Part shown: piece by piece, positions 36,963 through 55,929 of the stretch
How positions within the stretch are numbered: the stretch's first letter is position 1
Layout: every line of letters starts with the position of its first letter
Assembly: GCA_902825775.1 (NCBI GenBank)
Contig: CADECF010000013.1
Location: forward strand, 36,971 to 100,970
Direction of reading: 5' to 3'
DNA length: 64,000 nucleotides
Origin: an uncultured Lysobacteraceae bacterium
GTDB taxonomy: Bacteria > Pseudomonadota > Gammaproteobacteria > Xanthomonadales > Xanthomonadaceae
Notes under the pieces: generated by a model
Seen by the model: only the letters and a program-made list of their open reading frames with translations
Told to the model about the DNA's origin: nothing
Database searches by the model: none
Made by a program: the position numbers and the translations under genes

Positions 36963-38030
36963 CTAAAACCAGAATCGGACGCCGGCGACCCACTGGCCCT
37001 GGCTGCGATCGCCCCCGGCCGCTTCCGCCATATCGGCGGTCGCGCCGAATTTCCGGGACCGGACGTAGCCCAGATAAGGCGCGAATTGCCGGCGGATTTC
37101 GTAGCGCAGGCGCAAACCGAACTCGACATCGCTCAAACCCTCGCCGATGCCGTTCTCCGGATCGTCGCGGGAATAGAGGTTGGCCTCCAGTTTGGGCTGC
37201 AGGATCAGCCGATTGGTCAGCAGCAGCTCGTATTCGGCCTCGGCGCGCGCCGCCAGCCGACCGGATTCGCCGATGTAGGCGGTCGCGGCCACCTCGAATT
37301 TGTACGGCGCGAGTCCTTGGACGCCGAAGGCCGCCCAGTCGCGCGAGCGCGCCTGGCCGATATCGTGGCGCACGCCGAACATCGCATCCCACCACGGGCC
37401 GGCGGCGTGGCCCCAGAGCAGTTCGACATCGCCATGCTCGGTGCGGCCATCGCGGCGTTCTCCTTCGCTGCGCAGCCAGAGCCGGTTGTCGACGCGGCCG
37501 AGCCAGCCGCGCAGGTTCCAAGCCGTGCCGGTTTCATCGCCGTCTTCGGCACGATCGAGGGATGGGCGTTGCCATTCCAACTCGTCGAACTGCAGCATGC
37601 CGATCACTGGGTCGTCGTCCATGTGGTCGCGCATGTCCATGCCGTGCATATCGGGGAACGCGGCCGCACGTTCCTCCGCGGTGGGCGGGGGCAGTGGAGT
37701 AGGGGAGGCGGGCTTCGCTTTCTCTGCATTCCGTTCAGGCGGGGCGATTTGCGACATGTCATGGCCTTCGTGCTGCGCGAAAGCAGGCAACGCGAAACAC
37801 ATCAACATCAGCAGACCCGCTGTTCCCCCCTTTGAAAAAGGGGGGCAGGGGGGATTTGCTTTTGCTCTCTGTAAGAGCGGCTTCAGCCGCGAGCTTTTGA
37901 TGTTCGACAGGCGATCGAAGAGCTCGCGGCTGAAGCCGCTCCCACGAAAAGCAAGGCCAAAAGCAAATCCCCCCTGGCCCCCCTTTTTCAAAGGGGGGAA
38001 CAGCACAGGCAGCGAGCGCGAGCGGTTCAT
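36963..38030 (-). CDS. copB: Copper resistance outer-membrane protein CopB (signal region interrupted by repeats)
   Basis: Outer-membrane beta-barrel of the CopB family that helps sequester or export copper. The barrel part is normal (RLWLRSEGER, VQGLAPYKFEV, LLLTNRLILQPK, LRLRYEIRRQFAPYLG, ending GVRFWF), with a Met/His-rich N-terminal stretch (EGHDMSQ, MHGMDMRDHM). The start overlaps the copA stop (ATGA at 38027-38030). Residues 10-70 are encoded by a family D repeat with a family A repeat nested in it. The reading frame stays open, leaving MNRSRSLPV and the hydrophobic core GLLMLMCFALPAFAQ about 60 residues apart. Whether export still works is uncertain; an internal start near the core is possible. 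Confidence 0.85.
   Translation of the reverse strand: MNRSRSLPVLFPPLKKGGQGGFAFGLAFRGSGFSRELFDRLSNIKSSRLKPLLQRAKANPPCPPFSKGGTAGLLMLMCFALPAFAQHEGHDMSQIAPPERNAEKAKPASPTPLPPPTAEERAAAFPDMHGMDMRDHMDDDPVIGMLQFDELEWQRPSLDRAEDGDETGTAWNLRGWLGRVDNRLWLRSEGERRDGRTEHGDVELLWGHAAGPWWDAMFGVRHDIGQARSRDWAAFGVQGLAPYKFEVAATAYIGESGRLAARAEAEYELLLTNRLILQPKLEANLYSRDDPENGIGEGLSDVEFGLRLRYEIRRQFAPYLGYVRSRKFGATADMAEAAGGDRSQGQWVAGVRFWF
37819..38004. repeat. Family D repeat with nested family A repeat, inside copB
   Basis: Outer arms GCTGTTCCCCCCTTTGAAAA and complement match the element at 29402-29512. Its centre is replaced by a family A unit (37870-37946, AGAGCGGCTTCAGCC arms). The whole block is 186 bases, a multiple of three. 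Confidence 0.9.
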
Positions 38031-40250: not shown

Positions 40251-40282
40251 AGTGTGCACCCTGGACCCGACTCCAGGGTCAA
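40251..40282 (-). promoter_or_regulatory. MerR-type promoter of the cueR-copA-copB operon
   Basis: On the minus strand, TTGACC (-35, 40282-40277) and a weak -10 (CACACT) are separated by about 20 bases. The spacer contains the dyad ACCCTGGA/TCCAGGGT (40258-40265 and 40272-40279). A stretched spacer with a central dyad is the hallmark of MerR activation. Confidence 0.65.
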
Positions 40283-40489
40283 CGGCGATGGCGTGTCGGC
40301 TCGTCGCGCGCAAGAACGAGCGGATCGTAAATCGATCGAAAAGCGGTGCCGCAGATCGCCATCCTTCCGCCTATCGCCACTGCGGCGCCCCGACCAATGT
40401 TAGCGGTCGGTCGCCCACATTTCTCCATGTCGATGGAAGCGTGACCGCCTCCACACTGCGCGCCCCTTTGAGTGTGCGAGCAGCCCCCG

Positions 40490-42355
40490 ATGAATCCACG
40501 CCATCTTCGATCCACCACTGCGGAACGCCGCGGTCCGTCACTTCGTACGCTTTGTGTGTTCGCTGCGTTGTTCGTATCGAACCATGCGATGGCAGGCGAT
40601 GCCTGCGTCATGGCCGCAACCGGCCCGCTCCCGCCGAGTACAGGCGTCGCCGATGCGAACAGCAACGCCTTGGCTTGCGGCAGTGCGGTGGCAGGCGGTG
40701 CGAGCAGCGTCGCGCTGGGCGGCAGCGCTCAGGCGCAGGGAGCGAGCGCGATCGCGGTCGGCGGTGCGGCAGGCGCCTTCGCCGAACAAGGCATTGCGAT
40801 CGGCGGCGGATCCGAGGCCGGCAGCTTCGGAAATCCCGACGGAATTTCGGGCGCTATCGCTATCGGCAACAGCGCGGGCGCTTTCGGCGGAGGCAGCGTC
40901 GCGATCGGCGTCAACAGCGAAACGCTGAACCCGAACGCGGTCGCGGTGGGCGCGGGCAGCAACGCTTTGAACGAAGGCACGGTCGCCATCGGCGACGCGG
41001 CGGTGTCCACCGGAGAATTCTCGTTGGCGATCGGCAGCACGGCCAACGCGGTCGGCAACAATTCCGTGGCATTGGGCGATTCGAGTTCCGTCACCGGTGC
41101 GAATGCCGTCGCGATAGGCAGCGGCGCCAATGTCAATGCCCCCAACAGCATCGCGATCGGCGCATCTAGCAACGCTGCAAGCAACGACAGCGTAGCGTTG
41201 GGAACCGATGCGAGCACGGAACAGGATTTCGCCACGGCGTTGGGCACCAATAGCTTGGCAGCGGGATTGAACAGCACCGCGACGGGTTTCCGCAGCAGCG
41301 CCGTAGGCGAAGGCAGCATCGCGCAGGGCGCTCTGAGCAACGCCGAAGGCGCAGGCAGCGTCGCGGTCGGTGGTGCGTTCGATCGCAATGGAGACGCCAT
41401 CATCGCGGACGACGAGCGCACGTTGGCCAACGGGAAATTCTCAACCGCCGTCGGCAGCGGATCGCAGGCATTGGCTACCAATTCGACGGCGAACGGCTGG
41501 CTAGCCAATGCGGCCGAAGGCAACAGCACCGCGATCGGCGCCAACAGCGACGCCACGCAGCAAGGAGCGACCGCGCTCGGTGCGGGCTCCCAGGCGGTAG
41601 GCGAGGGCAGTACGGCAGTCGGCGGTCAAACGGTTTTCGGTGCTAATAGCGACAAGCTCGCAACGACGGTTGCCTCGGGCAAATTCGGCACCGCATTCGG
41701 CGCTGGCGCGCAGGCGACGGGTTCGGTCAATGCGACCGCGAACGGTTGGCTGGCAAACGCCAGTCAGGACAACACGACCAGTTTGGGCGCGAACAGCGCC
41801 GCAAGCGCGACGGGCGCAACCGCCATCGGCCGTGCAGCGAACGCTTCGGCAGCTAACAGCGTGGCTTTGGGCACCGGTTCGATCGCCGATCGGGTCAACA
41901 CCGTATCGGTAGGCGCGGCCGGATCCGAACGCCAGGTCGCCAACGTCGCCGACGGCACGCAGGCCACTGACGCTGCGAACGTGCGCCAGGTGCAGTCGGG
42001 CGATGCGGAGACATTGAGCCAGGCGAACGCGTACACCGACCAGCGCGTGCTCGAAGTGGCAAACGCGGACGTCGAGGCGTTGCGTCGGGACATCGACGAC
42101 CGTTTCTACCAGCAGGACCGCCGCACGGACCGGGTCGGTGCGATGAGCACCGCCATGATCCAGATGACCGCCAACGCGGCCAACAGCACCGGTACGCGCG
42201 GACGGCTCGCCGTCGGTGCCGGCTTCATGGGCGACGAACAAGCCGTTTCGATCGGCTACGGAAAACGCCTCAGCGAACGCACCTCGTTTACCTTGGGCGG
42301 CGCATTCAGCGGCGATGAAACTACCGCAGGTATCGGTTTCGGCGTGGACTTGTAA
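40490..42355 (+). CDS. Trimeric autotransporter adhesin (YadA-like)
   Basis: Type Vc adhesin of 621 residues. After a signal peptide (RTLCVFAALFVSNHAMA) comes a long head made of about two dozen YadA-type repeats such as NAVAIGSGANVNAPNSIAIG. A neck (GSERQVANVADGTQATDAAN), a short coiled coil (YTDQRVLEVANADVEALRRD) and the C-terminal membrane anchor ending TTAGIGFGVDL follow. The head makes up almost the whole passenger and the stalk is very short. The calcium-binding-like DRNGDAIIADDE insert (near residue 305) is unusual. A terminator follows. Confidence 0.92.
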   Translation: MNPRHLRSTTAERRGPSLRTLCVFAALFVSNHAMAGDACVMAATGPLPPSTGVADANSNALACGSAVAGGASSVALGGSAQAQGASAIAVGGAAGAFAEQGIAIGGGSEAGSFGNPDGISGAIAIGNSAGAFGGGSVAIGVNSETLNPNAVAVGAGSNALNEGTVAIGDAAVSTGEFSLAIGSTANAVGNNSVALGDSSSVTGANAVAIGSGANVNAPNSIAIGASSNAASNDSVALGTDASTEQDFATALGTNSLAAGLNSTATGFRSSAVGEGSIAQGALSNAEGAGSVAVGGAFDRNGDAIIADDERTLANGKFSTAVGSGSQALATNSTANGWLANAAEGNSTAIGANSDATQQGATALGAGSQAVGEGSTAVGGQTVFGANSDKLATTVASGKFGTAFGAGAQATGSVNATANGWLANASQDNTTSLGANSAASATGATAIGRAANASAANSVALGTGSIADRVNTVSVGAAGSERQVANVADGTQATDAANVRQVQSGDAETLSQANAYTDQRVLEVANADVEALRRDIDDRFYQQDRRTDRVGAMSTAMIQMTANAANSTGTRGRLAVGAGFMGDEQAVSIGYGKRLSERTSFTLGGAFSGDETTAGIGFGVDL

Positions 42356-42388
42356 GCCGGGCACCGATAGCCGCCGCCGTGAATAAGC

Positions 42389-42417
42389 AAAAACCCCGCG
42401 AAGGCGGGGTTTTTGTT
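42389..42417 (+). terminator. Rho-independent terminator after the adhesin gene
   Basis: Stem AAAAACCCCGC/GCGGGGTTTTT with a 4-base loop and T-rich tail. Confidence 0.88.
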
Positions 42418-42498
42418 TAGTGTCCGATTCCATAACGGCGCTTCCGACGAAAACTAATAAAAACAGCTACTTAGAAATATAGGGGTACAGATTTGCGG

Positions 42499-42527
42499 TT
42501 GACGCGGCGGACAGAAGTCTGTATCCC
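42499..42527 (+). promoter_or_regulatory. Promoter of the tns operon
   Basis: TTGACG (42499-42504), a 17-base spacer and TATCCC (42522-42527), followed by GGAGGG at 42545-42550 and the ATG at 42558. Confidence 0.5.
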
Positions 42528-42557
42528 TTTCTGCGGGTCAAACCGGAGGGCACGCTC

Positions 42558-43214
42558 ATGGTCGACGCCGGTCCGCAGTTCAAGCCGCGGAAGATCAGCG
42601 ACGCCGAGTTCCGGCGCTCAAATGTTTTTGTGGCTTGGTCCGGGAAGGTCGGGCGCCAGGTTCAGCTGATAGGCCCGAACCAGTACGACGCCTGGCTATT
42701 GATCGAGTTCGGCCCTGACGTCGCTTGGCTTTGCGAGCGGCCGCCGATCTATATCGAACTACTGCCCCTAGAGGGCAAGCGACGCCCCCTCCATTTCTGG
42801 GTGCGCCAACGCTCCGGCAAGCAGTTCGGCGTAGTGCTTTATGACGTGGCGCTCGCCCGGGACAAGGCTTGCCCTCTCGATCTGCTCAAGCGGTCGATCG
42901 AGGCGTCCAAACTGAAATGCGAGATATGGCAGGCGGCTGATATTCGCAGTCGTACGACCTATGTGCGCAATCTCAAGGAACTGCAGCCGTTCGTTGCCAT
43001 GGAGCAGTCCTCGGACGAACAATTGGCCACATCACTCGTGGCTCATCTAGAACGGGTCAAAACGGCCAGTTGGTCGGAGCTGATGACGCTATTCGCGTCC
43101 CGGTTTGAGGGGGTCGTGAACATGGAAATTGCCCGGTTGATCCACGCGGGACGAGTGACGGCCAATCTCGGAGACCACGCATTGGCCTCCAATACGGTGT
43201 TGAGCCTGCCATGA
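42558..43214 (+). CDS. TnsA-like transposition protein, probably degenerate nuclease
   Basis: A 218-residue protein at the tnsA position. Its middle part (ELLPLEGKRRPLHFWVRQRS) aligns by eye with the TnsA nuclease core, in which an aspartate and a Glu-x-Lys pair bind metal. Here the aspartate place is histidine (LHF) and the Glu-x-Lys is replaced by VVLYD, so the nuclease is probably inactive or strongly altered. The C-terminal half (SWSELMTLFASRFEGVVNME) looks like a winged helix. It overlaps tnsB by ATGA. The assignment rests mainly on gene order and this weak match. Confidence 0.6.
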   Translation: MVDAGPQFKPRKISDAEFRRSNVFVAWSGKVGRQVQLIGPNQYDAWLLIEFGPDVAWLCERPPIYIELLPLEGKRRPLHFWVRQRSGKQFGVVLYDVALARDKACPLDLLKRSIEASKLKCEIWQAADIRSRTTYVRNLKELQPFVAMEQSSDEQLATSLVAHLERVKTASWSELMTLFASRFEGVVNMEIARLIHAGRVTANLGDHALASNTVLSLP

Positions 43215-45097
43215 GCATCGCCGAACGCTTGGCGATTGCCCCGGAACTTCGGGATACGACCAAGTGGGACAAACCGCGCGAGTCGGACATCCCGAAGGAC
43301 GACCTCGAGGAATACCGGCGCCGGAAAAAAGCCGTAACGGCTTACCTCAATGGCACGCCGTTTGCCACGATCGAAAAGGATCACGGTTACTCCAAGAGCC
43401 AGATCTACCGGATGCTTGATCGATGCCTCACCGCTCGGCCAAACGGAACGATGTATGGATTTCATGCGCTAATTCCAGGCGCCTCAATTGCCCCTTATAA
43501 GCGCAAGTCGCCGGTCAACCCTGAACTAGCGGCGCAGACCAAAGGCTTGGCTGGGGCCTTCATGCAGCTCATGGCCGAGCATGAAATTCTGTACCGATAT
43601 GTGGAGAAGCACGCCCTTAATTCGGGAGGAAAATCAGCTGCGGTCATTGCCAAGGCGATTCGCGCAGAGTTTCTAAAGAAATGCGCCAAGGTTCGCGCCC
43701 CTAACCAGTACCCATTCAATACGGATGATCAGGGCGCTCGTGCGCTCGTGCGCTTCATCGATCGAATGCGCGAGGATCACTATGCGACGAAGAACGGGAA
43801 TGAAGAGGAAAGCGCTGGCGCTTTTGAGCAGCCACTAACAGCTCAGCCTTCGGGGGCGCAGCAGTTGCGGCCTTTTGAAGAAACCGAACATGACGGTCAT
43901 AACGGCGATTTCTATTTTGTCATCAAGGCGCGCGGGCGACGCGGGGAATGGATTTATACAACCCCGATGCGCTTGTGGCTGTTGATTCTGATTGATCGTG
44001 CCAGCCGAGCCATCCTGGGATATTCGTATCGATTGGGAAGTACGAACTATCCAGCGATTTCCGTTATGCGCTCGTTCGTGCATGCCATGACTCCGTGGAA
44101 ACAGAAGGAGCTGACATTGCCCCATTTGGCCTATAAAGAAGGGGCGGGGTTTCCATCGGGTGTGGCGCCTCGAGCCCATGGCCGTCTGATAGACCTGGTG
44201 TGCTTTGATGGTGCCAAGGCCAATACTGCGAAAGTCACGATGCGCGGCCTCACTACGGTGCTGGGGGCCACGATCAATTACGGCCGCGTGCGATTTCCTA
44301 TTGCCCGCCCGTTTATCGAACGCCTGAATCAGACACTGGAAACCCATGGGTTCCGTCGTCTACCAATCGGCTTTAATCCAAAGGGGCCTAAGGAAGAAAG
44401 GGAGCGAGCGCTGAAGGCCGCCAGCGAGCATGCCGTCACCATAGATGAATTGGAGCAAGTGATCGACGTCATGCTGGCCAACAGCAATGCGGATCCACAC
44501 GAAGATTTGGTCAACCGCAGCCCTAATGAGTACATCCGTATGTGGGACAGCCAGACCGTGTCACCGCTTCGGCGCATCGAAAACCCGGAAGAGCTTTCAC
44601 AACGGCTTTTGCGCTTGGAGTACATCAAGACGATTCGTGGTGGAGGCGAGTCCCATCGTGCGCCATACATCGAACTTTGGGGTGCCCGCTACACGAATGA
44701 CGTGCTGCAGAAGATGAAGGATTCGATCGGCAAGAAGGTGCGCATCATCGTCGATATTGACGGGGACATTCGTTTGATTCGCGCGTACTTTCGAAGGGGA
44801 AGCAAGGAGCTTCCGCTTGGGATTCTGAAGGCAGGGCCACCTTGGCATCTTACGCCGCATACGCTGGAGCAACGGCAGCTTGTTAGACGGGCCCACAAGG
44901 TCAGCAAACTTGTGGTCAAGCCAGGTACCGACATGATGCAGACGTTCAAGCAGGTGCGGCAGCGTGAGGCACAAGAACGCAAGTCAGCCACGAATCAGTT
45001 GGTTAAGGCTGGCAAAATCGGAGAGCCTCAGGCGCACAACCGCGAACGCGATGCCAAGGCGCGAATCGCGAAGACGGACTGGATAAAGCTCAAATAG
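43211..45097 (+). CDS. TnsB/TniA-like DDE transposase
   Basis: A 628-residue transposase of the Mu/Tn7/Tn5053 rve superfamily. N-terminal HTH (TIEKDHGYSKSQIYRMLDRC, about 53-72) is followed by the integrase core (MRLWLLILIDRASRAILGYS). Candidate catalytic residues are D228 (TEHDGHNGD), D333 (VCFDGAKAN) and E370 (RPFIERLNQTL), the last two 37 residues apart as expected. The C-terminus is basic and would bind DNA and TnsC. Translationally coupled to the TnsA-like gene; tnsC starts 14 bases downstream. Confidence 0.85.
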   Translation: MSIAERLAIAPELRDTTKWDKPRESDIPKDDLEEYRRRKKAVTAYLNGTPFATIEKDHGYSKSQIYRMLDRCLTARPNGTMYGFHALIPGASIAPYKRKSPVNPELAAQTKGLAGAFMQLMAEHEILYRYVEKHALNSGGKSAAVIAKAIRAEFLKKCAKVRAPNQYPFNTDDQGARALVRFIDRMREDHYATKNGNEEESAGAFEQPLTAQPSGAQQLRPFEETEHDGHNGDFYFVIKARGRRGEWIYTTPMRLWLLILIDRASRAILGYSYRLGSTNYPAISVMRSFVHAMTPWKQKELTLPHLAYKEGAGFPSGVAPRAHGRLIDLVCFDGAKANTAKVTMRGLTTVLGATINYGRVRFPIARPFIERLNQTLETHGFRRLPIGFNPKGPKEERERALKAASEHAVTIDELEQVIDVMLANSNADPHEDLVNRSPNEYIRMWDSQTVSPLRRIENPEELSQRLLRLEYIKTIRGGGESHRAPYIELWGARYTNDVLQKMKDSIGKKVRIIVDIDGDIRLIRAYFRRGSKELPLGILKAGPPWHLTPHTLEQRQLVRRAHKVSKLVVKPGTDMMQTFKQVRQREAQERKSATNQLVKAGKIGEPQAHNRERDAKARIAKTDWIKLK

Positions 45098-45111
45098 CAA
45101 GGGGACAGAAG

Positions 45112-46056
45112 ATGCACCCGGTAGAGCTCGACACCTACGTCATGCCGACTAACGCATTGGAAGACTTCGTCAATGTGTGCGTTGGTTGGATCAACTCGAA
45201 TGTCGTTGGCGCACTGGTGCCTGGACTTCAGCGCATCGGCAAGAGCTTCGCCGTGGAATACTTCTTGGCGAATTACCGTAAATGGCTAGGCAACTCTGTT
45301 GGCGTCGTCTCAGCCGAAGTTCTGTATCACAAGGCGGGAATTTCAGAAGGTGCCTTTTGGGGCGATCTGTTGAGTTCAATAAAGCGGCCGACAACAAAGC
45401 GCAGGCCGGAAGAGCGGCGGGCACTGTTCGTTGGAAGGTTGATCGAAGTAGGGTCCCGTTCCGAGAAGAAGAAGGTCGTCGTCTTTCTGGATGAAGCCCA
45501 GCTATTGGACGACTCTTTATTCAAATTGCTAATCGGCGTCCACAACGAAATGTGGCGCATTTACAAGATCAAGTGCCTCTGGATATTGGTTGGACAGCCG
45601 GAATTGGAGACTGTGGTTTCCACCTTCATTGCCGAAGGCAAGCGGCAGATCGTAGGCCGTTTCATGACGGACACCTACATGTTCCTGCCGCTAACCGGCA
45701 TTACGGATTTCGAGGCCGCGGTGGAATGCTACGACCTTCACTTGCATCATCCGATCGGCGGTCCATCCTTTACTGCGCACTTTGCGCCCATACCTTGGGC
45801 CGCAGGCTATCGACTGGCATCTGATGCCGATGTCATCTACGGACGTATCGCTCAAGCGCGCACCGACAATGGATTGCCCGAAGGGCAGGGCATGACCATG
45901 CAGGGGTTTACGACCCTGATGAACCATATTTTGATCCACCTGTTGCCGAATCTGAAACCTGGCGAACACTTGAATCAGGATGACATCGACAAAGCTATCG
46001 TTGCTACGAACTGCATGATCTTCGAGCAGCAGGAAGCGCTGCTGGCGACCGCGTGA
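45112..46056 (+). CDS. TnsC/TniB-like AAA+ transposition ATPase
   Basis: A 314-residue AAA+ ATPase with Walker A GLQRIGKS (38-45) and Walker B VVVFLDEAQLL (D127, E128). The sensor segment CLWILVGQPELE matches TniB/TnsC proteins that select the target and activate the transposase. It is closer in size to TniB than to Tn7 TnsC (~555 residues). GGGGAC at 45101-45106 precedes the ATG. No TnsD/TniQ gene follows, which is unusual. Confidence 0.85.
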   Translation: MHPVELDTYVMPTNALEDFVNVCVGWINSNVVGALVPGLQRIGKSFAVEYFLANYRKWLGNSVGVVSAEVLYHKAGISEGAFWGDLLSSIKRPTTKRRPEERRALFVGRLIEVGSRSEKKKVVVFLDEAQLLDDSLFKLLIGVHNEMWRIYKIKCLWILVGQPELETVVSTFIAEGKRQIVGRFMTDTYMFLPLTGITDFEAAVECYDLHLHHPIGGPSFTAHFAPIPWAAGYRLASDADVIYGRIAQARTDNGLPEGQGMTMQGFTTLMNHILIHLLPNLKPGEHLNQDDIDKAIVATNCMIFEQQEALLATA

Positions 46057-46114: not shown

Positions 46115-46900
46115 TCAGAATGCGCTTAACGGTTGCGCCTTCACACGCGCATGGCAGAGCAATGCCTCTTCGCTTGGTCTGCTTGTCCAATAAAGCGCTC
46201 CTAGGCCACTCGCCCATTGGACAATGGCTCGCCCTAATGCGTTTTCCGGAAGAGGGTTTGTCGGCGCAAACGAACAGTTCGACCAGGCGCCACTTGCCAC
46301 GGACGCGGCGCGGCGCTTGAGCTCCTTGTAGATGCCGTCACGTAGACCATCGGCTTGAAGTCCATTTTGCATTGCCATGGAAGCGCCGCGACGGACCGCA
46401 GCCCACCCGCAGTAGCGCCATTGGGCTATGGTCAGTGCAGATCCAGGACCTTCGCGATAGGCGAAGGCTAGATCTTGTGCCCAATCGGCGGCAAATCGAT
46501 GCTTCACCAACTGCTGCTCGAAGTACCTCTCCGCCTCAGCCGGGGCCAAATCCGACCAAAGGCGCAGTCCTACTGCGACTGTGAAATCAGTTTGTTCTAG
46601 CGTGTCGAAGTAATCATCAAGGGCTTCCAGCAGCCGCGCTGGTTCATAGACAGTCCACGCCAGCCGCCACTGCAGTCCTTCGATCGGTGTGTTCTGAGCG
46701 TCCTGCTTGAACTCCCATCGCATTTCCGGCCATGGCACTTCGATCACGCCATGGTCTTGCAGCAATGCCATCACCACAAGTGACATGCGCTTGGTCGGAG
46801 CGATCGGCAGCCGGCGCGCCTGACCGGTCAAGAGCGCCCAGAGGTAAAGGCAGCCCTGCAACCCGAGCTCATCGACAGTAGCAGGAGCGGGTGATGCCAT
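46115..46900 (-). CDS. Protein of unknown function next to the tns module
   Basis: I do not recognise this 261-residue protein. It is soluble, mostly helical, with many tryptophans (MRWEFKQDAQN, IAQWRYCGWAAVRRGA) and no signal peptide or membrane helix. It is convergent to tnsC (58-base gap) and divergent from an XRE regulator (96-base gap), so it may be controlled by that regulator. It lacks the N-terminal zinc-finger pattern of TniQ/TnsD. It could be cargo or an accessory or targeting factor of the element; the sequence does not decide. Confidence 0.65.
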   Translation of the reverse strand: MASPAPATVDELGLQGCLYLWALLTGQARRLPIAPTKRMSLVVMALLQDHGVIEVPWPEMRWEFKQDAQNTPIEGLQWRLAWTVYEPARLLEALDDYFDTLEQTDFTVAVGLRLWSDLAPAEAERYFEQQLVKHRFAADWAQDLAFAYREGPGSALTIAQWRYCGWAAVRRGASMAMQNGLQADGLRDGIYKELKRRAASVASGAWSNCSFAPTNPLPENALGRAIVQWASGLGALYWTSRPSEEALLCHARVKAQPLSAF

Positions 46901-46996: not shown

Positions 46997-47344
46997 GTGG
47001 TGACGCGGACGACACAACACCCAGTATTTGCGTTGAGGTTGGCCCAGGCACGGAAACGCGCTGGCCTGTCGCAGCGCCAGCTCGGTGTATTGGCGGACTT
47101 GGACCCGACCGTGGCCTCACCTCGCATCAACCAGTACGAACGCGGCAAGCACGAGCCCCAGCTCAAGACCGCCAAGCGCCTAGCCGAAGTGCTGGGTATT
47201 CCGCCTGCATTCCTTTACACCGACGACGACGTGCTGGCCGAATTGCTACTGCGCTGGAACGACCTGACGCTCCGCCAGAAAAAGAACCTGCTCAAGCAGG
47301 CTGAAACGGCATCGCCGGCGAAACGGTCACGCAAAGCCGAGTAG
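46997..47344 (+). CDS. XRE-family HTH regulator
   Basis: A 115-residue regulator with a Cro/C1-type HTH (FALRLAQARKRAGLSQRQLG ... INQYERGKHEPQLKTAKRLA, about 11-62) and a basic tail (SPAKRSRKAE). The GTG start at 46997 is preceded by AGGGGAGGG. It is divergent from the orphan 261-residue gene and lies just before the ars operon. It may control the orphan gene. Confidence 0.82.
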   Translation: MVTRTTQHPVFALRLAQARKRAGLSQRQLGVLADLDPTVASPRINQYERGKHEPQLKTAKRLAEVLGIPPAFLYTDDDVLAELLLRWNDLTLRQKKNLLKQAETASPAKRSRKAE

Positions 47345-47418
47345 GGCGGTTTCGCCCGTGGGATCAGGCCGCCCCCCATACCGATCGCCTTAGACCCGAT
47401 GGGCCGGAATCTTGCGCA

Positions 47419-47456
47419 TTGACATATTTCTATATTTCCGGAAATATAGAAATATG
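47419..47456 (+). promoter_or_regulatory. arsR promoter/operator, perfect 34-bp palindrome
   Basis: TTGACA (47419-47424), a 17-base spacer and AAATAT (47442-47447) form the promoter. Bases 47423-47456 are a perfect palindrome (half site CATATTTCTATATTTCC) that covers the -10 and the arsR ATG at 47454. ArsR bound here would block RNA polymerase. Transcription should start at or next to the ATG. Confidence 0.8.
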
Positions 47457-47795
47457 AAGAGTGAATCAGCCGTCTCTGCCCTCAATGCCCTGAGTCACGA
47501 AACACGTCTGGCCGCGTTCCGTGCCTTGGTCCAGGCCGGCCCTGACGGACTGGCCGTGGGTGAGCTTCGCGAGCGGCTGGACACCCCCGCCGCCACGCTG
47601 ACCGCGCACCTCAATGTGCTGCGGGCAGCCGCGCTCGTCCACGACCAGCGCGAGGGCAGGGTCATCCGCGTGCGCGCGAACTATCTGCAAATGAACGCCT
47701 TGCTTGCCTATCTCACCGAGAACTGCTGCGCCGGCACCGTGAGTTGCGATCCCGTCGCCGCATGCACCCCCAAGAAAACAGGAGCCCGCGCATGA
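47454..47795 (+). CDS. arsR: Arsenic-responsive repressor ArsR
   Basis: A 113-residue winged-helix repressor. Its As(III) site is C-terminal (C91, C92, C98 in ENCCAGTVSCDP), the spacing known from the Acidithiobacillus-type ArsR, and not in the recognition helix as in the plasmid R773 type. ATG 47454 lies inside the operator palindrome and has no Shine-Dalgarno, so a leaderless mRNA is likely. It overlaps arsI by ATGA. Confidence 0.93.
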   Translation: MKSESAVSALNALSHETRLAAFRALVQAGPDGLAVGELRERLDTPAATLTAHLNVLRAAALVHDQREGRVIRVRANYLQMNALLAYLTENCCAGTVSCDPVAACTPKKTGARA

Positions 47796-48280
47796 ACCGC
47801 TTCCACGTCCACCTGAATGTGTCCGACCTTGCCGCAAGCGTGCGCTTCTATTCGGAGTTGTTTGCGGCACAACCCACCGTCCTCAAGACCGACTACGCCA
47901 AGTGGATGCTTGAGGACCCACTGGTGAACTTCGCGATCTCCAACACTGGCCGCGCGCCGGGCATCGACCATCTGGGCTTCCAGGTCGAGAGCCCCGAGGC
48001 GTTGTCAGCCATTGGTGAGCGTCTGGACGCGGCTGGTGGCGCCGTGGTGCCGGAGGAGGCCACGATCTGCTGTTACGCACAGTCGGACAAGCTGTGGACT
48101 GAAGACCCGCAGGGCACGCGCTGGGAAACCTTCCGAACGGTAGGCGAGGCAACAACCTATTACGCCGGGGATGCGCCCTGCGCGACGGATGGCGCCGCTT
48201 GCAGCCCCGATGTGTCCTCGATGAAGCCACGCCCGGAGCAGGCGACGTCCTGTTGCGCACCACAATCCGGTTGCTGCTGA
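47792..48280 (+). CDS. arsI: ArsI/CadI-family metalloenzyme (C-As lyase-like)
   Basis: Vicinal-oxygen-chelate protein of 162 residues. ArsI enzymes cleave the C-As bond of trivalent organoarsenicals. Candidate metal ligands are His at the N-terminus (MNRFHVHLNVSD), H60 (GIDHLGF) and E112 (TRWETF). The vicinal thiol pair that binds As(III) is present as C93-C94 (ATICCYAQ). A cysteine-rich tail (TSCCAPQSGCC) follows. The family also contains CadI-type proteins, so substrate is not certain. Confidence 0.85.
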   Translation: MNRFHVHLNVSDLAASVRFYSELFAAQPTVLKTDYAKWMLEDPLVNFAISNTGRAPGIDHLGFQVESPEALSAIGERLDAAGGAVVPEEATICCYAQSDKLWTEDPQGTRWETFRTVGEATTYYAGDAPCATDGAACSPDVSSMKPRPEQATSCCAPQSGCC

Positions 48281-48302
48281 TCTCTGCCCTTGGAACCCCG
48301 TC

Positions 48303-48791
48303 ATGACTGAACAACGCGTTTTCAACACGCTCTTCTTGTGCACCGGCAATTCGGCACGCAGCCAGATGGCCGAAGCCCTGCTCAATCACATGGGCAAAGA
48401 CCGTTTCCGTGCCTACAGCGCAGGCAGCACACCTGCCCTTTCGGTGCAGCCATTGGCCATCAAGCTCATTGCGGACCTGGGGTTGAATACTTCGGAACTG
48501 CGTCCCAAGCGCTGGGATGAGTTCGCGGCTCCCGAGGCGCCGCAGATGGATTTCATCATTACCGTCTGCGACAACGTCGCCGGCGAAACATGTCCCGTCT
48601 GGGCAGGCCACCCGGCGCTCGCGCATTGGGGCGTGCCGGATCCGGCGAAGAACCCCACCGATCCGAAGGGATTCAAGGATGCCTGGCTCACCTTGCGTCG
48701 TCGGGTAGAGCTCTTGTTGGCGTTACCACTGGAAAAGCTCGACCACCTGGCACGCGAGCAAGCCTTGCGCCTCATCGGGAAGGAAGTCTGA
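48303..48791 (+). CDS. arsC: Arsenate reductase, LMW phosphatase type (first copy)
   Basis: Reduces arsenate to arsenite. The 162-residue protein has the low-molecular-weight phosphatase loop CTGNSARS (C13-S20) and two further cysteines, C88 and C96 (TVCDNVAGETCP), placed like the disulfide cascade of thioredoxin-coupled ArsC. The C-terminal helix is longer than in the second copy. It lies 22 bases after arsI and 3 bases before the second arsC. Confidence 0.88.
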   Translation: MTEQRVFNTLFLCTGNSARSQMAEALLNHMGKDRFRAYSAGSTPALSVQPLAIKLIADLGLNTSELRPKRWDEFAAPEAPQMDFIITVCDNVAGETCPVWAGHPALAHWGVPDPAKNPTDPKGFKDAWLTLRRRVELLLALPLEKLDHLAREQALRLIGKEV

Positions 48792-48794
48792 CCC

Positions 48795-49178
48795 ATGAAG
48801 CGCGTTTTGTTCGTGTGCGTAGAAAACTCAAACCGCAGCCAGATGGCCGAAGCCTTCGCACACCTCTACGGCGGTGATCAGGTCGAGGCGTTGAGCGCTG
48901 GCTCCAAGCCTTCCGGCCAGATCAACCCGAAAGCCGTCCGCTTCATGGCCGAATTGGACTATGACTTGTCGACGCACGCGTCGAAGTCGCTGGACGAGAT
49001 CGACGGTGCATTCGACGCCGTCATCACCATGGGCTGTGGCGACAACTGTCCTTGGGTACCCGCGAAGCGGCGCGAGGACTGGGCGCTGCCCGATCCGAAG
49101 CACTTCGATGACGACGGTTACCGGGCCGTGCGTGATGAGATAGCCGAACGCGTCAAGACGCTGCTGGCGGAACTCTGA
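48795..49178 (+). CDS. arsC: Arsenate reductase, LMW phosphatase type (second copy)
   Basis: A 127-residue arsenate reductase with the phosphate loop CVENSNRS (C8-S15) and the cysteine pair C81/C85 in GCGDNCPWVPAKRREDW. The sequence differs clearly from the upstream arsC, so this is not a recent tandem duplication; the two may use different reductants. The stop overlaps the aquaporin start (TGATG). Confidence 0.88.
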   Translation: MKRVLFVCVENSNRSQMAEAFAHLYGGDQVEALSAGSKPSGQINPKAVRFMAELDYDLSTHASKSLDEIDGAFDAVITMGCGDNCPWVPAKRREDWALPDPKHFDDDGYRAVRDEIAERVKTLLAEL

Positions 49179-49870
49179 TGGCGCTGCGCAAGAAGCTGCT
49201 GGCCGAGTTTCTCGGCACCACGCTGCTGCTCGCGTGCGTGGTGGGCTCCGGCATCATGGGCGTCAACCTATCCCAGGGGAATGATGCGATCGCGCTGCTC
49301 GCCAATGCCGGTGCAACTGCGGGCGTGTTGTACGTGCTGATCGCCGTGCTGGGACCGATCTCCGGCGCCCATTTCAATCCTGCGGTCACCCTGGTGATGC
49401 GCCTGCGTGGTGAACTGCGGACGCGCGATGCGATCGCCTATATCGGTGTGCAAGTGCTCGCGGCCATCGCCGGGGTGATGCTGGCCCATGCGATGTTCGA
49501 TCTGCCACTGCTGCAGCCGGGCACCCATGCGCGTACCGGTCAGGCACAGTGGCTGAGCGAAGCGGTCGCCACATTCGGACTGGTGCTGACAATCCTGCTG
49601 GGAATCCGCCATCGTCCCACCGCGATCCCGGCGCTGGTCGCCTGCTACATCTTCGCCGCCTACTGGTTCACCGCCAGCACGTCGTTCGCGAACCCTGCGG
49701 TGACGTTGGCGCGTTCGTTGACTCAAACGTTTGCGGGAATTCGTCCTGAAAATGTGGGTTTGTTCGTGGCCTCACAATGCGTCGGTGCACTCGCGGGATT
49801 GGCTATTTTGCGGTTTATCGAACGCCCGGCATCGAGTGGCATTGCATCCAACGAACAAGACGCTGCCTGA
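49178..49870 (+). CDS. aqpS: Aquaglyceroporin-like channel (AqpS-like) of the ars operon
   Basis: Major-intrinsic-protein channel of 230 residues with six membrane helices and both NPA boxes (FNPAVTL, ANPAVTLAR). In some ars operons such a channel lets arsenite leave the cell downhill after ArsC reduces arsenate. No ArsB or Acr3 pump gene is present in this operon, which supports that role here. It ends the ars operon; the copper operon starts 113 bases later. Confidence 0.87.
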   Translation: MALRKKLLAEFLGTTLLLACVVGSGIMGVNLSQGNDAIALLANAGATAGVLYVLIAVLGPISGAHFNPAVTLVMRLRGELRTRDAIAYIGVQVLAAIAGVMLAHAMFDLPLLQPGTHARTGQAQWLSEAVATFGLVLTILLGIRHRPTAIPALVACYIFAAYWFTASTSFANPAVTLARSLTQTFAGIRPENVGLFVASQCVGALAGLAILRFIERPASSGIASNEQDAA

Positions 49871-49900
49871 TGTGGCCAATGCTTGTTTGTCGGGACAAAC

Positions 49901-49919
49901 CCTTGACTATGGTCAAAGG
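49901..49919 (+). promoter_or_regulatory. Candidate operator upstream of the cop operon
   Basis: Near-palindrome CCTTGACTATGGTCAAAGG in the gap between aqpS and copL. It shares TTGACT and GTCAAAGG with the site before the second cueR (55470-55490). Regulation by CueR or by a CopL-dependent route is inferred. Confidence 0.45.
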
Positions 49920-49983
49920 ATTTTGGGGCGGCTATTCACGTTCTCTGTACACCTTGAGCATGTCGGCGGGTTAAAGTAAGGCC

Positions 49984-50412
49984 ATGTCCACCCGTGCCAT
50001 TCTGTTGCGCTTGTTGCTGTGCATTGCCTTGGTATTCAACGGGGCAGCCTCGGCCATGGCGTCTGTGCAGTTGATGCAAATGCACGCGGATGGACAGGGA
50101 ACGGCGAGCATTCCTGTCCCAACAATGGCGGACGCCGAACCTGCCATGCCGTGCCACCACAACGGACAGGCCTCGCACTCGCAAGACGCTGCCGACGCGG
50201 CAATGCCTTCCAAGGACAAGCAGCCCCACCAGGCACCCGATTGCTGCAAGTCGAGCACCTGTACCTGTGCGTGCGTTCATCAAGCCGCCGCCATGGTGCC
50301 AATGCTGGCTTTCCACGGAGTTGTGAGTCTTCATGGCAGTAGCGTCCGGCCGATGACCCTCGGCCATCCCACGCCGGCCTTACCCCATCTGATCCGACCT
50401 CCCATCGGCTAA
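49984..50412 (+). CDS. copL: CopL-like metal-binding regulatory protein
   Basis: Small exported protein (142 residues) with a signal peptide (LLRLLLCIALVFNGAASAMA) and a cysteine/histidine/methionine-rich mature part (MPCHHNGQASHSQD, DCCKSSTCTCACVHQ). In xanthomonads copL is the first gene of copLAB and is needed for copper-induced expression. Placement directly upstream of copA supports the call. Confidence 0.85.
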   Translation: MSTRAILLRLLLCIALVFNGAASAMASVQLMQMHADGQGTASIPVPTMADAEPAMPCHHNGQASHSQDAADAAMPSKDKQPHQAPDCCKSSTCTCACVHQAAAMVPMLAFHGVVSLHGSSVRPMTLGHPTPALPHLIRPPIG

Positions 50413-50526
50413 GTGTCCTTCGGCGCCCCCGGCGCCAGTTCGCTTGCGCGCGTCGTCCGTTCGACGCGCCAGCAGGCTGTGGCCCAGCGCTCGTGCTGGC
50501 CCGTTGACACTTCGATGGAGCTTCAC

Positions 50527-52416
50527 ATGTCTTCCGATGCTTTCGGCCGTAATGCCGACGGGTTGTCCAAGCCGTCGCGGCGGCGGTTCGTGCAGGGATT
50601 GGCCGCAGGCGGTGCTGTCGCCGGCCTCGGTTTCTGGCCAAAACTCAGTTGGGCACTGCAAGGCCCCGGCAACCCGAATGTCCTGTCGGGTACCGAATTC
50701 GACCTCACCATCGGTGAGACGCCGATGAATTTCACCGGACGCATGCGTCCAGCAGTCACCGTCAACGGATCGATTCCAGCGCCGCTGCTGCGCTGGCGCG
50801 AGGGCACGACGGTCAACCTGCGCGTGTCCAATGCACTGCCGGAAGGCTCGATTTTCGGCCATGAAACCTCGATCCATTGGCACGGCATCCTCTTGCCGGC
50901 CAACATGGATGGTGTACCGGGGTTGAGCTTCAACGGCATCCACCGGGGCGACGCTTACCAGTACCGATTTACGGTGAAGCAGGGTGGCACGTACTGGTAC
51001 CACAGCCATTCTGGATTCCAGGAACAGGCCGGACTCTACGGCCCGCTCATCATCGATCCGATCGAGCCCGAACCGTTCGCGTTTGATCGCGACTACGTGG
51101 TGATGTTGTCCGACTGGACCGACATGGATCCGACCCGGCTGTTCTCGCGCTTGAAGAAGATGTCGATGTACGACAACCACTACATGCGCACGGTCGGGGA
51201 TTTCCTGCGCGATGCCGAGCGCAATGGTCTCGCGACCACGATCGACGATCGCAAGATGTGGGGGCAAATGCGCATGTCGCCGACCGACCTGTCGGATGTC
51301 AACGCGAACACCTACACCTACCTGATGAACGGCACGACCTCGCTGGGCAACTGGACGGGCCTGTTCCGCTCCGGCGAGAAGATCCGCCTGCGCTTCATCA
51401 ATGGCTCGTCGATGACCCACTTCGACGTGCGGATTCCCGGCCTGAAGATGACCGTGGTGGCGGCGGACGGCCAGTACGTGCATCCGGTCACCATCGACGA
51501 GTTCCGCATCGCCACCGCCGAAACCTTCGACGTGATCGTCGAGCCGTCGGGGCAGGATGCCTTCACGATCTTTGCGCAGGACATGGGCCGCACCGGTTTC
51601 GTCGCCGGCACGCTGGCCGTGCGCGAAGGCTTGCGTGCGCCAATTCCGCCGGTCGATCCGCGCCCGTTGCTGACCATGCAGGACATGGGCATGGATCATG
51701 GAAGCATGGGCGGCATGGACATGTCCGGCGGCAAGGGCATGGAAATGAGCTGTGGCGCCAACATGGGAATGGCCGACATGGACCATGGCGCGATGGCGCA
51801 GGCATCGAAGCCGGCCAATGCCGATCCGCACGCCGGCCACGACATGGCCGCCATGAAAGACGGCGCGATGGCGGGGATGAACCACGAGGGCACGGTCACG
51901 CATCCGGCCAGCGAAACGCGCAACCCGCTGGTCGACAACCAGGCCATGGTGGTCAGCTCGCGGCTGGACGATCCGGGCATCGGTCTGCGCGACAACGGGC
52001 GCAAGGTTTTGAGCTACTCGATGCTCAAGAGCGCCTTCGACGATCCGGATGGGCGTGATCCTGGTCGCGAGATAGAACTGCACCTCACCGGCCACATGGA
52101 ACGCTTCGCCTGGGGCTTCAATGGGCAGAAGTTTTCGGACGTCGAACCGCTGCGTCTCAACTATGGCGAGCGCATGCGCATCGTGCTGGTCAACGACACG
52201 ATGATGACGCATCCGATCCACCTGCATGGCATGTGGAGCGATCTTGAGGACGATCAAGGCAACTTCCTCGTTCGCAAGCACACCATCGACATGCCTCCTG
52301 GTAGCAGGCGCAGTTATCGCGTGCGTGCCGACGCACTCGGCAGTTGGGCCTATCACTGCCATCTGCTCTATCACATGGAAGCGGGAATGATGCGCACCGT
52401 GAGGGTCGACGAATGA
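50527..52416 (+). CDS. copA: Copper resistance multicopper oxidase CopA (island copy)
   Basis: Periplasmic multicopper oxidase of 629 residues exported by Tat (SRRRFVQGLAAGGAVAGLGF). Copper ligands are visible in HWHGILLPANMDG, WYHSHSG, HPIHLHGMW and HCHLLYHMEAGMM. The Met-rich insert (MDHGSMGGMDMSGGKGMEMS, then MGMADMDHG) is longer than in the copy at 38027. ATG 50527 has GGAG 6 bases upstream. It overlaps copB by ATGA. Confidence 0.95.
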   Translation: MSSDAFGRNADGLSKPSRRRFVQGLAAGGAVAGLGFWPKLSWALQGPGNPNVLSGTEFDLTIGETPMNFTGRMRPAVTVNGSIPAPLLRWREGTTVNLRVSNALPEGSIFGHETSIHWHGILLPANMDGVPGLSFNGIHRGDAYQYRFTVKQGGTYWYHSHSGFQEQAGLYGPLIIDPIEPEPFAFDRDYVVMLSDWTDMDPTRLFSRLKKMSMYDNHYMRTVGDFLRDAERNGLATTIDDRKMWGQMRMSPTDLSDVNANTYTYLMNGTTSLGNWTGLFRSGEKIRLRFINGSSMTHFDVRIPGLKMTVVAADGQYVHPVTIDEFRIATAETFDVIVEPSGQDAFTIFAQDMGRTGFVAGTLAVREGLRAPIPPVDPRPLLTMQDMGMDHGSMGGMDMSGGKGMEMSCGANMGMADMDHGAMAQASKPANADPHAGHDMAAMKDGAMAGMNHEGTVTHPASETRNPLVDNQAMVVSSRLDDPGIGLRDNGRKVLSYSMLKSAFDDPDGRDPGREIELHLTGHMERFAWGFNGQKFSDVEPLRLNYGERMRIVLVNDTMMTHPIHLHGMWSDLEDDQGNFLVRKHTIDMPPGSRRSYRVRADALGSWAYHCHLLYHMEAGMMRTVRVDE

Positions 52417-53528
52417 AGACGACCATGTCACTCGCCCCCCTCGCTGCGGGCCTGCTGCTGGCATTCAATGCCGCCGCGCAGGACCACTCGCAACACCAGA
52501 TGCCGATGCCGCCGGCCACTCAGGATCATTCACAACATCAGATGCCGGCAATGCAGGACCACACGCAGCATCAGGTCAAGCCGAAAGCCAAGCCGAAGGT
52601 AAATCCAAAGCCCAAACCAAAGGCGAAGCCCGGCACCACGCCGAAGCCAAAGGCAACGACGCCTGCTGCACCGATGGATCACGCGGCGATGGGCCACGAG
52701 ATGCCGGCACAGGCGCCGGCCGCAATGGATCACGGCGCCATGGGACATGACGCCGCGCAACCGGTGCCGATGGATCATTCCGCGATGGGGCACGTCATGC
52801 CGCGCCCCGCAGACCAGCCCCTCACGCCAATTCCGATGTTGACGGATGAAGATCGCGCGGCTGCCGCGCCGCCACCGAACGATCATCCGGTGCACGACAA
52901 CAGCGTGCAGCACTATGTGCTGCTCAACCGCCTCGAAGGCTTCGATACCGACGATGGCACCGGCATGGCATGGGAAGGTCAAGCCTGGATCGGCACCGAT
53001 CTCAACAAGCTCTGGCTGCGCAGCGAAGGCGAGCGAGTCGGTGGGCACATTGAAGGCGCGGACCTTGAAGTCCTGTATGGCCGTGCATTCGCCCGCTGGT
53101 GGGATGTGGTGGGCGGCGTGCGCCACGATTTCAAGCCGGGCGCATCGCAGGACTTCGTCGCGATCGGCGTGCAGGGGCTGGCGCCATACAAGTTCGAAGT
53201 AGAGGCGACCGCGTACCTCGGCCAATCCGGCCAGACCGCGGCGCGCCTGGAGGCCGAATACGAAACGCTGCTGACCAACCGGTTGATCCTGCAGCCGCTG
53301 GTTGAAGTCAATTTCTACGGCAAGAACGACGAACGTCGCGGCATCGGTTCCGGCTTGAGCACCGCCGAGGCCGGGTTACGGCTTCGCTACGAAGTCACCC
53401 GGCAATTCGCGCCGTACATCGGCGTCGTTCGTGAGCATGCCTTCGGCCGCACCGCGGATTTCCGCCGTGCCGCCGGCGAAGACGTCAACGACACCCGCAT
53501 CGTCGCGGGCATCCGCATCTGGTTCTGA
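52413..53528 (+). CDS. copB: Copper resistance outer-membrane protein CopB (island copy)
   Basis: Outer-membrane copper protein of 371 residues with an intact signal peptide (SLAPLAAGLLLAFNAAAQ). A long His/Met-rich segment (DHSQHQMPMPPATQDHSQHQ) is interrupted by a Lys/Pro linker (VKPKAKPKVNPKPKPKAKPG). The CopB barrel (KLWLRSEGER, VQGLAPYKFEV, TNRLILQPLVE, ending AGIRIWF) follows. Compared with the chromosomal copy, the signal region carries no repeat insertion. Confidence 0.93.
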   Translation: MKTTMSLAPLAAGLLLAFNAAAQDHSQHQMPMPPATQDHSQHQMPAMQDHTQHQVKPKAKPKVNPKPKPKAKPGTTPKPKATTPAAPMDHAAMGHEMPAQAPAAMDHGAMGHDAAQPVPMDHSAMGHVMPRPADQPLTPIPMLTDEDRAAAAPPPNDHPVHDNSVQHYVLLNRLEGFDTDDGTGMAWEGQAWIGTDLNKLWLRSEGERVGGHIEGADLEVLYGRAFARWWDVVGGVRHDFKPGASQDFVAIGVQGLAPYKFEVEATAYLGQSGQTAARLEAEYETLLTNRLILQPLVEVNFYGKNDERRGIGSGLSTAEAGLRLRYEVTRQFAPYIGVVREHAFGRTADFRRAAGEDVNDTRIVAGIRIWF

Positions 53529-53542
53529 TCGGGGAGATCACC

Positions 53543-54412
53543 ATGCCATTCGTTACTCGAAAGTCCTTGCTCACGCTGAGCATCCTGTCCGGTGTCGCCC
53601 TCGTGGCGGCGGCCGGTTTCGTCTGGTCAGGCGTTTACAACATCGGCGCCGACGACACCCATACCCGGCCCGTGTATTCGGCGCTGCAAGCACTGCGCGA
53701 ACGCTCGATCGAGGTGCGCGCCAACAAGTTGCAACGACCTGCCGACCTCAGTGATCCGGCGCGCATTCGCCAGGGCGCTGGCAACTACAACGCCATGTGC
53801 ACCGGCTGCCATCTTGGCCCAGGCATGAAGGACACCGAACTGAGCAAGGGCCTGTATCCGGCGCCGCCGAATCTGAGCAAGGAGACGATCGATGCCGGCA
53901 AAGCCTTCTGGGTGATCAAACACGGCATCAAGGCGTCTGGCATGCCTGCTTGGGGCAAGAGCATGGAGGACGAGTACATCTGGAACATGGCGGCGTTCCT
54001 GCAGGCGCTGCCCAAGCTCACGCCCGAGCAATACCAAGCGCTCGTCGCCAGCAGTGGTGGACATTCGCATGGCGGCGGCGAGTCCGAGGGTCACGCGCAT
54101 GCCGAGGGTGGTGAGGACCATCACGACGAAGGCGATGCGAACGCCGAAGGCGAGGAGCACGACGCGATGGCGGGCATGCCGATGGATGAGTCCAAACCGC
54201 ACTCGCATCCTCCGGGCACGCCGCCGCACGACGATGCGCCCAAGGACATGAAGGCGCCGTCCGGTGAGGTGCACATCCATGCCGACGGCAAGAAGCACGT
54301 CCACGACGCACCGGCGCCTGCGACAGCCAAACCGGCCGCCGCCGACCCGCATGCCGGCATGGACATGCCCGAAACCGCACCGGCCAGCGATGGCCACGAT
54401 CACCAACACTGA
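53543..54412 (+). CDS. Cytochrome c with histidine-rich tail (copM-like position)
   Basis: A 289-residue exported cytochrome c: signal/anchor (LLTLSILSGVALVAAAGFVW), haem motif CTGCH (86-90) and a probable axial Met in SGMPAWG. The C-terminal ~115 residues form a His/Asp/Glu/Met-rich tail (GGHSHGGGESEGHAHAEGGE ... GHDHQH) that could bind copper. In xanthomonad cop operons a cytochrome-related gene (copM) follows copB; this gene occupies that place. Electron transfer to or from CopA is inferred. Confidence 0.82.
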   Translation: MPFVTRKSLLTLSILSGVALVAAAGFVWSGVYNIGADDTHTRPVYSALQALRERSIEVRANKLQRPADLSDPARIRQGAGNYNAMCTGCHLGPGMKDTELSKGLYPAPPNLSKETIDAGKAFWVIKHGIKASGMPAWGKSMEDEYIWNMAAFLQALPKLTPEQYQALVASSGGHSHGGGESEGHAHAEGGEDHHDEGDANAEGEEHDAMAGMPMDESKPHSHPPGTPPHDDAPKDMKAPSGEVHIHADGKKHVHDAPAPATAKPAAADPHAGMDMPETAPASDGHDHQH

Positions 54413-54429
54413 CCGGAGCCGTGAATCCC

Positions 54430-54912: not shown

Positions 54913-54923
54913 GGAGGAAGGCC

Positions 54924-55439: not shown

Positions 55440-55469
55440 ACGCTCAGGATGAGCCCAATGCAAAAGGGC

Positions 55470-55501
55470 TTGACTCTGGACTTTAGTCAAAGGTGGAGAC
55501 T
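55470..55501 (+). promoter_or_regulatory. MerR-type promoter/operator of the second cueR
   Basis: TTGACT (55470-55475) and AGTCAA (55485-55490) form a dyad overlapping the -35. The likely -10 (GAGACT, 55496-55501) lies 20 bases downstream, a stretched spacer typical for MerR activators. Confidence 0.55.
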
Positions 55502-55530
55502 GGCGGCATCCCGTCACGAGAGGTCCCCCA

Positions 55531-55925: not shown

Positions 55926-55929
<4 letters not shown>
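55531..55929 (+). CDS. cueR: MerR-family copper regulator (CueR-like, island copy)
   Basis: A 132-residue MerR activator with N-terminal HTH ([20 protein letters not shown]) and C-terminal metal loop C112-x8-C121 ([12 protein letters not shown]), the same spacing as in the chromosomal copy. There is no cysteine near position 77, which argues for Cu(I)/Ag(I) sensing. It overlaps the copper ATPase start by ATGA and has its own MerR-type promoter at 55470. Confidence 0.9.

Follow-up and report, generated by a model that had tools for sequence, protein, structure and literature searches.

The stretch of DNA analysed here (the window) comprises 64,000 nucleotides of the genome of an uncultured Lysobacteraceae bacterium, denoted G000 (contig C13, positions 36971–100970), and holds three adjacent genes, tnsA-like, tnsB and tnsC, at the left end of a Tn7-like transposon. 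The contig continues for 30.5 kb past the window, and positions there are given as window-equivalent coordinates. The left end of the element and its flank are laid out as follows.

40282–42420: left flank outside the element, with an adhesin-like gene (40472–42355) and a terminator-like inverted repeat (42384–42419)
42421–42557, + strand: left transposon end, with a TGTCCG terminus
42558–43214, + strand: tnsA-like gene, 218 amino acids
43211–45097, + strand: tnsB, DDE transposase, 628 amino acids
45112–46056, + strand: tnsC, AAA+ ATPase, 314 amino acids

The three genes are co-oriented, with an overlap of 4 bases between the tnsA-like gene and tnsB and a spacing of 14 bases between tnsB and tnsC, in agreement with a preliminary description of this DNA that had recognized a TnsA–TnsB–TnsC module with these junctions, a DDE triad and a small AAA+ ATPase with Walker motifs. 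The triad (D228, D333 and E370) is invariant in an alignment of TnsB with three relatives of 25–55% identity, and the top solved relatives of the TnsB profile are two TnsA–TnsB fusion proteins of a Tn7-like system (E 6.5e-5 and 1.6e-4). The ATPase is equally well borne out, as TnsC carries the motifs GLQRIGKS and VVVFLDEAQ and matches AAA_22 at E 2e-9. The assignment of the TnsA-like protein rests on its position, on weak best matches to Tn7 TnsA (the two best solved relatives of its profile, E 0.02) and on homology to a Pfam-positive relative, a Klebsiella plasmid protein that is about 21% identical and matches TnsA_N (E 4e-12). An E-x-K stretch that we take to belong to the nuclease motif is present in the Klebsiella homologue but not conserved in the window's TnsA subfamily, and in the window the D that precedes it is replaced by H.

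The left terminus is placed exactly at position 42421 (TGTCCGATTCC), preceded by the bases TTTAG and directly after the terminator-like inverted repeat, where homology to the element of Lysobacter selenitireducens 13A (G024) starts; the placement also draws on the TGTCCG terminus, on a site scan and on the TGT/ACA ends with 5-bp duplications of relatives. Within the left end, a GGGTACAGATTT site (42483–42494) and an inverted GGATACAGACTT site (42515–42526) lie around the presumed tnsABC promoter. A gene for TniQ is not visible in the open reading frame list of the 64-kb window, but one lies on the same contig beyond it, in the following arrangement (window-equivalent coordinates).

86965–88104, − strand: active tyrosine recombinase
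90983–92338, + strand: TniQ gene, 451 amino acids
92354–93364, − strand: dead tyrosine recombinase YR1, 336 amino acids
93375–94415, − strand: dead tyrosine recombinase YR2, 346 amino acids

Residues C111, C114, C132, H135, C143 and C146, of zinc-binding type and in an arrangement that we take to be the TniQ zinc-binding pattern, are invariant in seven TniQ proteins, and 13 of the 13 distinct solved-sequence matches of the seven-protein profile are TniQ or TnsD (E up to 1; best 2.9e-6). The Pfam TniQ model did not score in G000, where a control was also silent, so this silence is not read as absence. Among five genomes searched, the best match (68% identical) is in G024, at the far end of its element. 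The contig stops 57 bases past the second of the two tyrosine-recombinase-like genes that come after TniQ, and the element extends to at least this contig end at 94472, giving a length of at least 52 kb.

Whole elements, with their ends and target duplications, were read in relatives. A scan with the TniQ profile at E up to 1e-10 returned 15 of 395 genomes, of which seven are close (G000, G024, G092, G312 or PR5, G118, G071 and G408, a Xanthomonas sp. LMG 31884) and eight are distant (E 1e-10 to 1e-15). The complete element of G024 lies on one contig (415233–498104, 82,872 bp), with no N in the six stretches checked from 396001 to 516000, and has the order left end, tnsA, tnsB, tnsC, orphan gene, helix–turn–helix (HTH) gene, cargo, active tyrosine recombinase, TniQ, dead recombinase, right end. 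Its termini are TGTCCGC and GCGGACA, with GACTG flanking both. Matching 5-bp duplications were also found in G118 (GTGTC), G071 (GCAAG) and G092 (GACCG); the G071 element occupies 44,642 bp of a single contig, and in G118 and G092 the two element ends sit on different contigs. The right ends of G024 and G092 look alike, but their flanks and duplications differ, and the two were therefore inserted separately. Two to three presumed transposase sites of GGATAC type are present at the right end, and two lie within the last 70 bp in five of five right ends, compared with 0.03–0.06 in shuffles. Such TGTCCG...CGGACA ends, repeated transposase sites and 5-bp duplications are those of a Tn7-like transposon.

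The right ends share a landmark, dif, the XerC/XerD site in the replication terminus where joined chromosomes are separated. Among the six close relatives of G000 in the TniQ scan, five have dif just past the recombinase/TniQ end of the element in the same orientation, and in the sixth, G408, the right end at dif lies about 56 kb beyond a cluster of tnsABC, tniQ and dead recombinase. The gap between the right end and the 28-bp dif measures 48 bp in G024, 43 bp in G092, 43 bp in G118, 50 bp in G071 and 39 bp in G408, with the end on the same side of dif and in the same orientation at all five sites. PR5 (locus L052), where dif is 38 bp from the expected end register, was left out of these statistics because its terminal bases deviate. 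Over the five sites, mean column identity is 0.91 in dif and 0.51 and 0.54 in the flanking 70 bp (random expectation 0.50), so that dif is the only stretch conserved within 70 bp, the upstream 70 bp being partly transposon end. G024, G092, G118 and G071 each have a single dif-like match, which in G024 lies just past the right end; G408 carries two, the second with 3 mismatches. The tniQ of G408 is divided between two reading frames, and its congener G371 has much the same left flank, running into dif.

The insertion site of the window's own element was approached through three congeners of G000 (G001, G002 and G003) that have neither a TnsB nor a TniQ match. The DNA left of 40282 is syntenic with their dif neighbourhoods, and the matches end about 0.4 kb (G001), 5.2 kb (G002) and 3.1 kb (G003) from dif. 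This synteny suggests, short of proof, that the window's element was inserted beside dif.

Of the eight distant genomes, seven have a recognizable dif, which was not found in G238. The element of G068 (contig C1, about 295.4–334.8 kb; L105 and L132) is a distant Tn7-like element of 39,326 bp with a TnsB of about 29% identity; a first search for TGT/ACA ends found nothing there, and a looser one gave the ends TGGCTGCGCGCC, of TGG/CCA type and agreeing at 12 of 12 terminal bases, with CAATC on both sides. In G239 (contig C18, about 66–105 kb; L108 and L128), tnsB, tnsC and an orphan gene lie at one end and two tandem TniQ-like proteins at the other, with dif 184 bp after the second; the ends of this element were not found. 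In G029, where end searches did not resolve the element, dif is about 73 kb downstream of TniQ. In G371, G218, G229, G214 and G284, dif lies at distances of about 11 to 123 kb from TniQ, always on the upstream (tnsA) side, and no element end was seen near it when the DNA around dif was read by eye. Homing to dif is strongly supported by these sequence comparisons for the close subfamily and G068, and because of the five genomes with a remote dif it is not claimed for the whole TniQ family.

The preliminary description had treated the element as one without TnsD or TniQ, targeted by another route, perhaps by the orphan gene at 46115 or by TnsC alone. This gene and its usual neighbour are located as follows.

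46115–46900, − strand: orphan gene, without a Pfam or NCBIfam match at E up to 1
46997–47344, + strand: HTH regulator, which usually adjoins the orphan gene

Such an element would explain why the window itself contains no TniQ, an observation that stands, but TniQ is found at the right end in G000 and G024 and beside tnsC in G408, with a profile that matches TniQ and TnsD only. A tniQ gene to the right of the window is the very finding that the preliminary description had named as refuting its reading, and we consider a TniQ-less element very improbable. The orphan gene is likewise an unlikely target selector: it was not found beside tnsC in the dif-inserted G118 (1.7 kb past tnsC read) and G071, and on a Xanthomonas plasmid, where no tns gene turned up within about 8 kb, related genes adjoin a copper operon. 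The orphan and HTH pair accompanies tnsABC in several genera and is present or absent among relatives; the orphan is probably a frequent, not universal companion and not the selector. The more general idea of another targeting route may be right in spirit, as the usual neighbour of TniQ is a dead tyrosine recombinase and the landmark is dif. That the three genes belong to one mobile unit carrying the metal genes to their right is upheld by the complete G024 element, with both ends and its 5-bp duplication. Of the proposed follow-up, extension of the contig to the right reached TniQ and the recombinases but not the right terminus, ends and duplications being read in relatives, and the comparison of neighbouring genes and insertion sites yielded four relatives with 5-bp duplications and five at dif.

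YR1 and YR2 are 45% identical to each other and, together with single counterparts in four other genomes, resemble the element-borne active recombinases in their N-terminal half. The Arg, His-x-x-Arg, His and Tyr boxes of the active relatives are lost in the dead proteins, whose genes are open over 336–353 amino acids in five genomes and have their losses in common. Inspection found no CxxC pair in YR1 and YR2. When a structure model of YR2 (predicted local distance difference test score, pLDDT, 80.5; six sequences) is compared by Foldseek, the nine best matches (E 1.5e-3 to 1.5e-2) are all to Cre or to Tre, a derivative of Cre. The dead recombinase adjoins TniQ near the right end in G000, G118, G092, G024 (disrupted) and PR5, and in G408 it stands beside tniQ in the compact cluster, in which tnsABC, tniQ and the dead recombinase are contiguous. 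Besides G000, four of the six close relatives (G024, G118, G071 and G408) carry the active recombinase, which was not seen in the parts read of G092 and PR5. A search with the dead recombinase through 369 genomes of the class returned, apart from G000, weaker tyrosine recombinases in four genomes, all closer to the active than to the dead type; read by eye, those of G032 and G640 retain the active-site motifs.

On balance, the probable reading of these observations is that tnsABC stands at the left end of a Tn7-like transposon, at least 52 kb long, that uses dif for attachment and whose TniQ is guided there by the dead tyrosine recombinase. TnsB would cut and join together with TnsA, and TnsC would connect them to TniQ. 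The dead recombinase, a putative TniQ-linked selector that has kept a recombinase-like N-terminal half and lost its active site, would recognize dif and bring the adjacent TniQ to it, with TniQ as the bridge. Its likely source is the separate active tyrosine recombinase. As part of the nuclease site appears to be missing from TnsA, the active enzyme may resolve cointegrates, which a TnsA without E-x-K might favour; both steps are guesses. Insertion beside an intact dif would spare chromosome-dimer resolution.

The chief rival explanation is that the element senses host XerC/XerD on dif, or that TniQ (or TnsB) itself reads dif, and that the dead recombinase has another job, such as regulating or blocking Xer; we hold this to be possible, though not probable. 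It is favoured by G071, which is at dif with an open TniQ (430 amino acids) and whose entire 44.6-kb element yielded no dead recombinase, and by G068, also at dif with none detected, so that the dead recombinase is not the sole route to dif. Insertion outside the 28-bp dif, as if to avoid bound proteins, fits as well, as do the IS1202-family insertion sequences (IS) that hunt dif without an extra protein and for which their authors suggest contact with XerC (PMC10132070). The position of the dead recombinase beside TniQ in all six genomes named above suggests instead a joint job of the two proteins, and a dead-recombinase selector has been shown experimentally in Tn6022 (PMC10293859).

Besides these two elements, several observations weigh against guidance of TniQ to dif by a dead recombinase, and against dif as the site in the window. 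The G000 assembly contains no dif when up to 3 mismatches are allowed, which is what a dif located immediately beyond the contig break would produce, and a search for the right flank in G000 with DNA of two congeners gave weak matches elsewhere only. The element's own right end is absent from the contig, and the link between its two ends rests on a scaffold with a 10-N gap at 64001–64010; a 15-base end pattern with up to 2 mismatches hit G000 at 24 places, compared with 22 for a control, and is uninformative. The G068 right end, 49 bp from dif, lies on the opposite side, in an element with a long TniQ. G408 lacks a matching 5-bp duplication, and its left end is degenerate. In G024 a disruption lies near the 5′ end of the dead-recombinase gene, which is open in G092. 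The sequence profile of the dead recombinases matches no solved recombinase, and the overall template-modelling (TM) scores of the YR2 Foldseek matches are low (0.27–0.38), none having E below 0.001.

The dead recombinases could also be decayed leftovers of an integrase, with the association with dif inherited from an older integrative element and no role in targeting. The active relatives that lie about 1.2 kb (G032) and 3.2 kb (G029) from dif would fit such an origin, but four elements each possess TGT/ACA ends and a 5-bp duplication unlike those of the other three and were therefore inserted separately by TnsB-type transposition, and the dead copies, the disrupted one of G024 excepted, have stayed open in five genomes with shared losses. 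We regard this explanation as improbable.

Tn5053/Tn402, the res site hunters, likewise transpose into the site of a site-specific recombinase, in their case plasmid res sites; the present elements differ in their chromosomal landmark, dif, and in a TnsA-like protein. With canonical Tn7-like elements that use TniQ/TnsD they share core genes, ends, duplication, cargo and a near-fixed distance from a safe attachment site, and they differ in having tniQ at the end opposite tnsABC (G000 and G024), dif as landmark and an incomplete TnsA nuclease motif. A close parallel in mechanism is Tn6022, in which TnsF, a catalytically dead relative of tyrosine recombinases with an active homologue, Tsy, guides the element to comM (Faure et al. 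2023, PMC10293859). Both systems combine TnsA, TnsB, TnsC and TniQ with a dead tyrosine-recombinase relative of which an active homologue exists elsewhere, but TnsF, as described there, has 498 amino acids with zinc fingers in the first 199, whereas the proteins here have 336–353 and no visible zinc-finger motif, and the target is comM, whereas here the right end is beside dif in five of the five relatives with a readable right end. The words dif, XerC and XerD are absent from the main text of that paper. The IS1202-family dif site hunters include ISAjo2, a 1.5-kb single-gene IS found 5 bp from the XerC site (PMC10132070). These resemble the present elements in a TnsB-like transposase, TGT/ACA ends, a 5-bp duplication and insertion in fixed orientation beside dif (PMC10132070), and they differ in size and placement, the elements here being large (82,872 bp in a relative with tnsA, tnsB, tnsC, tniQ and cargo) and inserted at 39–50 bp on the opposite side of dif, with the arms named by comparison with E. 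coli dif. A Tn7-like element at this site was not found in the accessible portions of the open-licence literature searched, which included PMC8649781, PMC12907356, PMC11472951, PMC8754128, PMC10132070 and PMC6464166.

Within that literature, a dif-hunting IS and a dead-recombinase selector are each known, and their combination in a Tn7-like element at dif appears to be new. We regard as evenly balanced the wider proposal of an undescribed Tn7-like family at dif whose selector arose from its own active recombinase by duplication and loss of catalysis, a second independent case beside TnsF/Tsy; the distant relatives (G068 and probably G239) would then imply that dif homing arose more than once or predates the dead recombinase. 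Because dif is kept by nearly every circular bacterial chromosome, insertion next to it gives an element a landing site that is near-universal, harmless and linked to replication. If the proposal is true, dif joins the attachment sites of Tn7-like transposons, the coupling of TniQ to a tyrosine recombinase is suggested as a general scheme, and the elements offer a natural system for placing large DNA (about 40–80 kb) at a defined site. The metal-resistance islands of Lysobacteraceae would also be tied to the replication terminus.

The remainder of the element within the window is cargo.

47412–64000: arsenic, copper and lead-type metal genes

Its predicted products, by family name, are an HTH_20 (ArsR-like) regulator, two LMWPc-family proteins of arsenate-reductase type, an aquaporin-like channel, a multicopper oxidase, CopB, a heavy-metal P-type ATPase, an NAD synthase and an FTR1/cytochrome c protein. 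To the right of the window the cargo includes a resistance–nodulation–division (RND) efflux pump, a RES-domain protein (L001:17318–18052), which is possibly a toxin, and a protein with a SAVED domain and an HNH nuclease (window-equivalent 85622–86914; L002:1622–2914), which is likely to be an anti-phage effector.

Further genes of the kinds described here were encountered elsewhere. An active tyrosine recombinase stands beside a KfrA-like DNA-binding gene about 1.2 kb (G032, L119:9405–11664) and about 3.2 kb (G029, L123:4866–9138) from dif. No tns gene was detected in L119, and the pair may represent another kind of element integrating at dif; the G029 recombinase may belong to a tnsABC element. 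Contig C20 of G000 carries a second tnsB-like gene, a distant homologue (24%) with its own TniQ-like stretch. The Klebsiella grimontii plasmid pNY3A encodes TnsABC and a protein of 506 amino acids that can be aligned with the TniQ set; the adjacent genes carry the annotations nucleotidyltransferase, ThiF, Mov34 and SAVED, a cargo resembling a cyclic-oligonucleotide-based anti-phage signalling system (CBASS). Finally, a repeat of up to about 85 bp occurs in both orientations in the window at about 37875–37949 and at about 3.0, 4.3, 19.8, 26.9, 30.7 and 34.1 kb, and also on contig C20.

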